Positions 54,783 to 57,447 of a DNA stretch of 64,000 nucleotides are shown here, piece by piece. The DNA is from Reyranella sp. (GTDB lineage Bacteria; Pseudomonadota; Alphaproteobacteria; Reyranellales; Reyranellaceae): the NCBI RefSeq assembly GCF_017305915.1, contig NZ_JAFKJN010000006.1, positions 62,001 to 126,000 of the forward strand, given 5' to 3'. Positions within the stretch are counted from its first letter, which is position 1. Every line of letters begins with the position of its first letter. The position numbers and the translations under genes were made by a program. A model generated the notes under the pieces. That model made no database searches, was not told the DNA's origin, and was given only the letters and a program-made list of their open reading frames with translations.

Positions 54783-55181
54783 ATGAACGACCGGCCGACC
54801 GAACAACCTCTCGAAGCCTGCGACGTGCTCGTCGTGGACGATGATTTCGCTTTGTCAGAAGCCATCACCCAGTTGCTGACCCGCAGCGGGCTGCGCGTGC
54901 GCAAGGCGCACAATGCTTCGGCGGCGCTGAGCTTCGCCGCCTTCGCGCCGCCGCGGGTGGCGATCCTCGACTACCAGCTGCCCGACACGACAGGCCTCGC
55001 GCTCGCCGCCGAGTTGCACGCCGAGATCCCCTCGCTGCACATCATCCTGATGTCGGCCAACAACGTCGACATCGACCGCAAGACGCTCGATCAGGCCGGT
55101 ATCAAGGTATTCGTCAACAAGCCGATGCCGCCCGGCCCGCTGCGCCAGGCGGTGATGCGGCTGCTGCAGACGCCGGCCTAA
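54783..55181 (+). CDS. single-domain response regulator
   Basis: A 132-residue CheY-like receiver domain with no output domain. The acidic pocket is VLVVDDDFALSEA, the phospho-acceptor Asp is in VAILDYQLPDTTGLALA, the Ser/Thr switch is ILMSANNVD and the conserved Lys VFVNKPMPPGP. It would take phosphate from a sensor kinase; the nearest kinase, at 48726, is a pseudogene. ATG 54783 is chosen; a further start at 54744 adds a non-family MTKRRAWGVSNTD. Its last bases overlap the convergent aldo/keto reductase by 4 bp. Confidence 0.88.
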   Translation: MNDRPTEQPLEACDVLVVDDDFALSEAITQLLTRSGLRVRKAHNASAALSFAAFAPPRVAILDYQLPDTTGLALAAELHAEIPSLHIILMSANNVDIDRKTLDQAGIKVFVNKPMPPGPLRQAVMRLLQTPA

Positions 55182-56158
55182 GCCGCCGGCGACACCCGGA
55201 ACTGGTAGGGCTCCTCGAGGCTCTTCGCCTCGTCGGCCGTGATCGTGAACTCCGTCGCCTTGGCGGCCGAGCTCAACTGGTCGAGGTCGGTCGCCCCGAT
55301 GATCGGCGCGGCCATGTAGGGCTTGCTGAGCATCCAGGCGAGCGCCGCCTGCGCCGGCGTGCAGTTCTTGCCGAGCGCGATCTTCTTTAGCCGATCGACC
55401 ACTTCCCAATCGCTGTTGCGATAGGTGCCGGCCGCCACGACGGTGTCGTTCTTGGCCCGCTCGGTCGCGCCGCCGCCTTCTTTGTTGCGATTGCCGGCGA
55501 GAAAGCCGCGGGCCAGCGGCGAATAAGGGATCAGGCCGACGCCCTGCTCCTCGCACAGCCGGTTCATCTCGCGCTCTTCCTCGCGCTGGATGAGATTGTA
55601 CAGGTTCTGCATGGCAATCGGCCGCGCATAGCCCCTGTGGTCGGCGATCATGATCATCTGCGCGAACTTGTACGCCGGCATGGTAGAGCCGCCGATGTAG
55701 CGGACCTTGCCCGACCTCACGATCTGGTCGAGCGTGTACATGGTCTCCTCGACCGGCGTGTAGGGATCGAGGCGATGGACCTGGTAGACGTCGATGTAGT
55801 CGGTCTGCAGGCGCTTGAGCTGCTCGTCGACCGCCGACATCAGGTGCTTGCGGCCGGTGCCCTGATCGTTGTGGCCCGGGCTGAAGCGGGCGCCGGCCTT
55901 GGTCGAGATGATGATGTCGTCGCGCCGCGCCATCTTCATCAGCGTGGAGCCGACGATCTCCTCCGATCGGCCGCTGTTGTAGACATCGGCGGTGTCGAAG
56001 AAGGTGATGCCGACATCGAGCGCGCGCTTGAAGTAGGCCGGCGCCTCGGCCTCGTCGAACTTGCCCCAGCCGCGGCGGCCCTTGGCGCCCCACGAGTTGC
56101 CGCCGAGGCAGATGCGGCTGACGATCAGGCCCGAGCGGCCGAGCGGTCCGTACTTCAT
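55178..56158 (-). CDS. aldo/keto reductase
   Basis: A 326-residue NADPH-dependent TIM-barrel reductase. The opening YGPLGRSGLIVSRICLGGNS is canonical. The catalytic Asp-Tyr-Lys-His set is in ITFFDTADVYNSGRSEE, IIISTKAGARF and YIDVYQVHRLDPYTP. GLIPYSPLARGFLAGNRNKE and WMLSKPYMAAPIIGATDL follow. It reduces aldehydes or ketones. GGGGGAAC precedes ATG 56158. It is divergent, by 47 bp, from the selenoprotein gene; a shared redox role is possible. Confidence 0.92.
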   Translation of the reverse strand: MKYGPLGRSGLIVSRICLGGNSWGAKGRRGWGKFDEAEAPAYFKRALDVGITFFDTADVYNSGRSEEIVGSTLMKMARRDDIIISTKAGARFSPGHNDQGTGRKHLMSAVDEQLKRLQTDYIDVYQVHRLDPYTPVEETMYTLDQIVRSGKVRYIGGSTMPAYKFAQMIMIADHRGYARPIAMQNLYNLIQREEEREMNRLCEEQGVGLIPYSPLARGFLAGNRNKEGGGATERAKNDTVVAAGTYRNSDWEVVDRLKKIALGKNCTPAQAALAWMLSKPYMAAPIIGATDLDQLSSAAKATEFTITADEAKSLEEPYQFRVSPAA

Positions 56159-56205
56159 CGAAGTTCCCCCTTGTTGGCAGCACCTTTAGCGCCCACTTTT
56201 GGGGC

Positions 56206-56424
56206 ATGAAAGTGCTGATCGAATATTGCGGCGCTTGAGGCTACAAGCCGCAGGCCCTCCGGGTGAGGGATAGTCTCCAGAAGCAGGGCGCGACCGACAT
56301 CGAGCTGCGCCCCGGCAAGTCAGGCCAGTTCGACATCACCGTCGACGGCGCGCTCCGCTACACGCGTACCAAGACCGGTCGCTTTCCGACCGATGCCGAG
56401 GTCGAGGATCTGCTGCCGGGCTGA
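56206..56424 (+). CDS. SelW-like (Rdx family) selenoprotein with UGA-encoded selenocysteine
   Basis: A 72-residue product if TGA 56236-56238 is read as selenocysteine. The N-terminus is MKVLIEYCGAUGYKPQALRV: a beta strand, then the redox motif Cys8-x-x-Sec11. YCGAUGYK is identical, residue for residue, to the eukaryotic selenoprotein W motif as I know it. The rest keeps the thioredoxin-like Rdx fold: IELRPGKSGQFDITVDG and RYTRTKTGRFPTDAEVEDLL. The family (SelT/SelW/SelH) acts in thiol redox control. The real stop is TGA 56422-56424. A CCCTC/GAGGG hairpin lies 17 nt after the UGA. ATG 56206 has only a weak GGGG just upstream. A nonsense mutation is the alternative, but a TGA exactly at the Sec site argues against it. 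Confidence 0.85.
56236..56269 (+). promoter_or_regulatory. Sec UGA codon with candidate bacterial SECIS hairpin
   Basis: UGA at 56236-56238 is followed by CCCTC (56255-56259), loop CGGGT, and GAGGG (56265-56269). The loop carries G residues and a U, and sits 22-26 nt after the UGA, inside the 16-37 nt window known for bacterial SECIS loops. The stem is short, so its function is unproven. Confidence 0.5.
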
Positions 56425-56460: not shown

Positions 56461-57447
56461 TCAGCCGTAGATTTCCCTGTTCACGCAGCGCTCGACGATC
56501 GGCTTGCCGTCGAACACCGACAGGATGTTCTCCATGACGGCGATCGCCATGCGGTCGTTCGACTCCTTGGTGACGCCAGCCATGTGCGGGCTGAAGATCA
56601 CGTTCTCCAGGCCGAACAGCTTGTTGCTCGGATCGGGCGGCTCGCGGTCGAGCACGTCGAGGCCGGCACCGCGCAGCTTGCCGCTGGTCAGCGCGGCATA
56701 GAGCGCGTCCTCGTTGACGATGCCGCCGCGCGCCGTGTTCACCAGGAACGCGTCGGGCTTCATGCAGGCCAGCGCCCCAGCGTCGAACATGTTGATCGTC
56801 TCGGGCGAACGCGGGCAGTGGATCGACACGAAGTCGACCTTGGGCAGGATCGCCCTGAGGTCGGTCACCTTCTTGGCACCGGCCTTCGCGATGTCTGCCG
56901 CCGGGATGTTGGGATCGAGCACGTAGGTGTCCATCTCGAAGGCGACGCAGCGCTTCACGGTGCGCGAGCCGATGCGGCCCATGCCGACCACCAGGATCGA
57001 CTTGCCGGCGAGATCGACGAGCGGGTCCGACAGACGCTCGTGCCAGGCGTTCTCGCGCACGAAGCGGTCCATCTTCCTGGTGAGGCGCGCCGAGGCGAGC
57101 AGCATGTACATCGCATGCTCGGCCACCGAGACCGAGTTGGCGATGCCGGTGGTCATCAGCGGGATCTTGCGCTTGCTGAGCGCCGGCACCTCGACCGCGT
57201 CGAAGCCGACGCCGAGGCGGGCCACCACCTCCATCACCGGCGAGACGTCGAGCTCGGCCTGGCGATAGGGCGTGCCGCCCAGGGTGACGGCGTTCGCGTC
57301 AGCCAGCTTCTTGTGATAGGAGCCGGCGACCTCGGCGAGCGGCAGGACCTCGTAATCGACGTCGTCACGCTTCTTCAGGACCTCCATACCCGCCGGCGGC
57401 ATCCAGCCGACAATCAGGATCTTCTTGCGGTTCTTGCCCGTGCTCAT
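56461..57447 (-). CDS. D-2-hydroxyacid dehydrogenase (phosphoglycerate dehydrogenase-like)
   Basis: A 328-residue NAD-dependent dehydrogenase. The Rossmann motif is SILVVGMGRIGSRTVKRC. Catalytic residues lie in VNTARGGIVNEDALYAAL (Arg), LDVLDREPPDPSNKLFGLEN (Glu) and VIFSPHMAGVTKESNDR (His). There is no ACT domain, unlike full SerA. The N-terminus KNRKKILIVGWMPPAGMEVL is basic. AGAGGAAACG precedes ATG 57447. It follows the Lrp-type regulator on the same strand (53-bp gap), which may control it. It probably acts on a 2-oxo acid from amino acid catabolism. Confidence 0.9.
   Translation of the reverse strand: MSTGKNRKKILIVGWMPPAGMEVLKKRDDVDYEVLPLAEVAGSYHKKLADANAVTLGGTPYRQAELDVSPVMEVVARLGVGFDAVEVPALSKRKIPLMTTGIANSVSVAEHAMYMLLASARLTRKMDRFVRENAWHERLSDPLVDLAGKSILVVGMGRIGSRTVKRCVAFEMDTYVLDPNIPAADIAKAGAKKVTDLRAILPKVDFVSIHCPRSPETINMFDAGALACMKPDAFLVNTARGGIVNEDALYAALTSGKLRGAGLDVLDREPPDPSNKLFGLENVIFSPHMAGVTKESNDRMAIAVMENILSVFDGKPIVERCVNREIYG

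Follow-up and report, generated by a model that had tools for sequence, protein, structure and literature searches.

A 72-codon frame on the plus strand of the window, as we call the whole stretch of 64,000 nt that was analysed, is with very high confidence a bacterial SelW-like (Rdx) gene, whose codon 11, a UGA, is predicted to specify selenocysteine (Sec). The gene, here called selW, extends over positions 56206–56424 (+) and consists of 72 codons and a TGA stop, with one internal TGA and a frame that is conserved in relatives.

The selW-like gene and its product

Translation of 56206–56424 (+) yields 72 residues ahead of the terminal TGA, MKVLIEYCGAUGYKPQALRVRDSLQKQGATDIELRPGKSGQFDITVDGALRYTRTKTGRFPTDAEVEDLLPG, confirming the original prediction of a 72-codon ORF with a single in-frame TGA at the CxxU of YCGAUGYK. 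The internal TGA, the predicted Sec codon (56236–56238, +), provides the U of the CxxU motif (C8-G-A-U11; 56227–56238, +), and apart from this codon the frame has zero internal stops. Columns 8 and 11 are invariant in our alignment of 16 rows (A1), in which U is shown as C. Upstream lies a divergent aldo/keto reductase gene (55178–56158, −; PF00248, 241.6 bits) and downstream a convergent gene for a D-2-hydroxyacid dehydrogenase (56461–57447, −; PF02826, 185.1 bits).

Under translation table 11, the only ORF listed in the selW frame is one of 53 aa beginning with GTG (56263–56424, +), which is what a standard caller would report. The bare count of TGA-interrupted frames proved useless as evidence, with 169 of them in the window (70 on the plus and 99 on the minus strand) passing a mechanical filter that asks for 10 or more codons ahead of the TGA and 40 or more beyond it. 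The selW frame stands above this chance level because homology spans the TGA and the TGA itself is conserved in relatives.

The product scored 59 bits against Pfam Rdx (PF10262; curated cut-off 22.6) and 47.6 bits against TIGR02174, the SelT/SelW/SelH subfamily (curated cut-off 34.2), and is hence a member of the subfamily with which the original prediction had suggested aligning it. Against the SelTWH_Campy equivalog (NF041051) it reached 71.3 bits, below the cut-off of 88, so that we do not assign it to this equivalog. An AlphaFold2 model, computed from the 16-row alignment with Sec entered as Cys (mean pLDDT 94.8), shows the order strand, helix, three strands and two short helices and places CxxU between strand 2–8 and helix 14–26. 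A fold search with this model gave 23 matches with E ≤ 0.001, namely the SelW-related chains 2fa8, 2p0g, 3dex, 2oka, 2ojl and 2obk together with mouse SelW (2npb) and MIEN1 (2ljk). A SelW-type thioredoxin-like fold is thereby predicted for the product, and the proposed membership in the Rdx family is borne out by the Pfam score and the predicted model alike.

The Agrobacterium protein Atu0228 (2fa8), a CxxC Rdx protein, shares the fold of the predicted model and aligns with the product through the motif (chain C: TMq 0.87, rmsd 1.1, 27% identity), but has Cys where Sec is predicted for the window product: in the profile alignment, column 11 coincides with the second Cys of its CTQC. In mouse SelW, the same column corresponds to the Cys of GACGYKP; this protein has in common with the window product GAxGYKP around the Sec position and the Rdx fold, although its similarity to the model is lower (TMq 0.65).

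Conservation of the TGA codon and the database record

Matches to selW homologues were obtained in 26 of 61 genomes, 24 of them among the 37 genomes of the genus (own genome included) and two outside it. All 24 same-genus copies and that of one outside genome (G048) have a single in-frame TGA, located at codon 11; the other outside genome (G053) contains a distant Rdx gene of 31% identity with Cys at this position. We also scanned genome contigs using two peptide patterns, neither spanning codon 11, and found TGA at codon 11 in all 63 loci, which overlap in organisms with the 24 same-genus copies and include two from one genome (L128 and L129, the latter cut by the contig end). Even relatives with as little as 41% identity retain the TGA, and neither TAA nor TAG occurs at codon 11 in any genome or scan copy. 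Neither the 62 scan loci nor the 25 genome loci have any further stop between the TGA and the natural end; L128 is left out of this count, L129 is cut by the contig end, and L130 ceases to follow the family beyond codon 24 and may have decayed or be a chimera. Over codons 12–66, dN/dS was 0.13–0.55 when the window gene was compared with 13 of its 23 counterparts in the genus, indicating purifying selection downstream of the TGA.

These data bear on the possibility that selW is a pseudogene, a CxxC SelW-like gene in which codon 11 has mutated to a stop. Table 11 reads TGA as a stop, leaving only the 53-aa ORF, and absence of the gene from 13 of the 37 same-genus genomes would fit decay; yet the same TGA, never TAA or TAG, recurs in every same-genus copy and in distant relatives, the frame beyond it lacks in-frame stops and evolves with dN/dS <1, and the genome holds the full Sec machinery described below. 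A pseudogene is thus largely contradicted by conservation at the sequence level, and we consider it very improbable. Relatives, which retain the TGA and have no further stops, speak for the original prediction on this point.

The protein database contained 369 homologues, of which 120 were listed. As many as 117 of these 120 begin after the TGA (116 of 51–54 aa, one of 66 aa), there or thereabouts where the GTG at 56263 lies, which would agree with a real product of 53 aa whose upstream part is a leader. Automatic calls, however, are not independent evidence, and such a protein would be without strand 1 and the CxxU loop. Moreover, the residues encoded by codons 1–10 are conserved in relatives and can be aligned with SelW-like proteins of known structure, and in several distant copies (L043, L116, L118) codon 20 is GCG, which is no start codon. 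We therefore give a 53-aa product very little credence and regard the entries as truncated versions of the full SelW-like protein. Standard callers had been expected either to miss the gene or to split it into two fragments; an annotation error it is, but in the form of one fragment starting after the TGA. That bacterial SelW genes are missed by annotation is already on record (PMC4607533).

Only three of the 120 listed homologues cover position 11, with Gly, Cys and Trp (P0004), respectively. All three are metagenome clusters of one sequence each, on contigs of 926–1296 bases, and their residues may reflect sequencing error, translation with another code or real substitution. Sense variants are likely over-represented in this list because gene callers can report them at full length. 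Relatives with a sense codon other than Cys or Sec, which the original prediction had considered damaging, hence exist as the Gly and Trp metagenome clusters; none occurs among the genome or scan loci.

As a side observation, some MAG records bear unlikely species labels such as Klebsiella pneumoniae, Asaia bogorensis and Rhizobium (L114, L102, L104, L125, L093); the contigs concerned carry Reyranella-like or other selW copies.

Selenocysteine machinery and candidate SECIS hairpin

The SelA/B/C/D machinery that the original prediction implied for this organism is encoded in its genome (6.47 Mb, 58 contigs). The genes selA (C56:186461–187783; 567.6 bits, curated cut-off 268), selB (C56:184554–186401; 462.1 bits, curated cut-off 242) and selC for tRNA-Sec (C56:184253–184344; 71.2 bits; classified by ARAGORN as tRNA-SeC with anticodon TCA) are clustered on one strand within 3.6 kb, while selD (437.2 bits, curated cut-off 125) is located on a separate contig, C12. 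Counting only matches >70 bits, tRNA-Sec is present in 35 of the 37 same-genus genomes, and the two without such a match are 73% and 89% complete. Weaker tRNA-Sec matches (<55 bits) were set aside because the search also gave hits in each of the 14 control genomes, in five of them over the cut-off. ARAGORN classified nine out of nine tRNA-Sec loci as tRNA-SeC with anticodon TCA; this set comprised nine of the ten fetched loci, leaving out L015 from another family.

Three family searches further yielded six TGA-containing selenoprotein candidates in the own genome: a formate dehydrogenase alpha subunit (UHGP), three AhpC/TSA-like proteins (UPYC, UPYC, UGC) and two CMD/AhpD-like proteins (CPFU, CVYU). 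They are distributed over contigs C37, C50, C42, C16 and C34 (L131–L135), with two on C42 about 1 kb apart. The TGA-containing fdhA (C37:11091–14144) lies on another contig than selA-selB-selC (C56:184253–187783); for the Alphaproteobacteria known by 2006, fdhA has been described as adjoining the selA-selB-selC operon (PMC1794560).

The eukaryotic SECIS sits in the 3′ UTR. For selW, the predicted SECIS hairpin is located at 56255–56269 (+) and consists of the stem CCCUC/GAGGG and the loop CGGGU, starting 16 nt, and with its loop 21 nt, after the TGA. The bSECIS model given in a 2026 review comprises a loop of 3–9 nt, an upper stem of 4–16 bp, a G in the first two loop positions, a distance of 16–37 nt from the UGA and an MFE ≤ −7.5 kcal/mol (PMC13188914). 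With a 5-nt loop, 5 bp, G as the second loop position and a spacing of 21 nt, the hairpin falls within the published constraints; its energy is −7.5 kcal/mol when bare, right at the published limit, and −12.2 kcal/mol for a 48-nt stretch. The loop ends C and U are unpaired, unlike in most of the published pattern.

Across 63 sequences (46 distinct), 91.7% of 230 cells were paired and three of the five pairs showed two-sided changes, for a structure that was derived from the consensus of the same sequences and with related rows that are not independent. The covariation score of 0.178 (shuffled mean 0.074) was reached by none of 500 shuffles and dropped when the partner was displaced by one, two or three columns. 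Two or three of the five pairs are lost in six distinct distant rows (L120, L121, L124, L125, L126, L129), which account for half of the 12 two-sided changes. When these rows were left out (40 of 46 distinct), 99.0% of 200 cells were paired, again none of 500 shuffles reached the score, and there were six two-sided changes over three pairs (L113, L119, L122, L123). The number of pair types was not above that of the shuffles, 479 of 500 being as high for the 46 rows and 90 of 500 for the 40 rows.

The hairpin appeared in the minimum-energy fold of 9 of 25 rows for a 54-nt stretch and of 22 of 25 for a 36-nt stretch. Among 23 same-genus copies, mean synonymous diversity was 0.097 in codons 14–21, the lowest value of all 8-codon stretches within codons 1–66, and 0.245 in the 56 other codons (Mann-Whitney p = 0.017, for a stretch picked after seeing the codons). 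No Rfam family matched the window at gathering scores, which leaves comparison between sequences, not an Rfam family, as the basis of the hairpin. The six distant selW copies named above keep the TGA, not the CCCUC/GAGGG stem, and may rely on another hairpin at this position.

That the UGA is instead read as tryptophan or by general read-through, giving a selenium-free product, is the least credible alternative: it could draw on the metagenome homologue with Trp at position 11, but TGA also terminates this selW (and 14 of 25 copies in all), the aligned relatives of known structure have Sec or Cys at this position, selA, selB, selC and selD are present, and the hairpin is conserved.

For selW as a selenoprotein gene, we infer Sec insertion, redox activity and a partner as follows. 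Following the E. coli pathway, SelA would use selenophosphate supplied by SelD to turn Ser-tRNA-Sec into Sec-tRNA-Sec, and SelB would bring the Sec-tRNA-Sec to the ribosome and bind the hairpin 16 nt past the UGA, which together would cause the UGA to be decoded rather than to terminate translation. The product would be a small thioredoxin-like protein whose Cys8-x-x-Sec11 pair, placed in the loop that leads into helix 1, would switch between a reduced state and a selenenylsulfide; judging from the family, its partner is likely to be glutathione or a thioredoxin. The redox function of SelW is itself a published inference from CxxU and a reported interaction with glutathione (PMC1088965).

Leader, distribution in the genus and relation to known SelW proteins

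A copy of a conserved box, CCACTTT (56193–56199, +), is positioned 13 nt before the ATG of the window selW, and none of the four Shine-Dalgarno (SD)-like tetramers scored was found there. A CCCA(C/T)CTT-like box precedes the selW ATG in 42 of 63 rows (the window and 41 of 62 scan loci), at a spacing of 13 nt in 39 rows and of 14 nt in three; an SD-like tetramer is present as well in four of the 42. The 41 box-bearing scan loci are those with an aldo/keto reductase start detected upstream. At the 20 loci without this neighbour there is no box; an SD-like tetramer occurs at 18, although such counts are rough as they rest on four tetramers. Where selW lies head-to-head with the aldo/keto reductase gene, one could imagine that it starts without an SD sequence from a very short leader marked by the CCCA(C/T)CTT box 13–14 nt before the ATG, and that this box acts as a dedicated switch tying selW expression to the selenium or selenocysteine supply, but we consider this unlikely.

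The selW gene is missing from 13 of the 37 same-genus genomes and is, therefore, dispensable. Its absence at the locus was judged on those six with a completeness of at least 90% (G001, G008, G015, G024, G028, G030), the other seven being less complete. In all six, the aldo/keto reductase gene directly adjoins the dehydrogenase gene, with a gap of 79–82 nt, compared with 298–389 nt in the three genomes measured that possess selW (G000, G016, G022). By eye, an intact box was not seen in any of the six spacers, and that of G001 contains an apparent remnant of the selW leader and start. Loss of the whole selW unit is the likely direction. In five of the six selW-less genomes (L138–L140, L143, L144), the spacer upstream of the aldo/keto reductase gene also contains an inverted repeat (GCGGCACCGGT...GACCGATGCCGC), which could be a shared terminator.

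SelW-like selenoproteins have been catalogued before (PMC13188914, PMC1794560, PMC2398784). They were described as the most abundant selenoprotein family in the Sargasso Sea set (PMC1088965), and the bacterial family is graded "predicted with high confidence" in the 2026 review (PMC13188914). The window gene shares with this family (PF10262 Rdx, CxxU) the domain, the CxxU motif, the position of the UGA and the type of hairpin, and differs in its host organisms and in having its own leader and genomic context. There is no difference of kind from the catalogued proteins, and the window selW is a genuine, ordinary family member. The SelW of Campylobacter jejuni (about 80 aa, on CJnc60) is likewise a small SelW with a UGA, and its full-length translation past the UGA is supported by ribosome profiling and proteomics (PMC11955535); the window product differs in scoring below the NF041051 cut-off and in that translation through the UGA is predicted from sequence. 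A literature search of limited coverage on selenoproteins or selenocysteine in Reyranella or Enhydrobacter returned no paper on this gene.

The finding exposes a systematic annotation error, by which the active-site end of SelW is absent from most listed database entries of this group. The genus offers natural with/without pairs for addressing SelW function, since in some close relatives the same two neighbours flank no selW unit. In addition, several selenoprotein candidates beyond formate dehydrogenase occur here in an alphaproteobacterium, whereas a 2006 survey names FdhA as the only selenoprotein of the Sec-decoding Alphaproteobacteria then known (PMC1794560).
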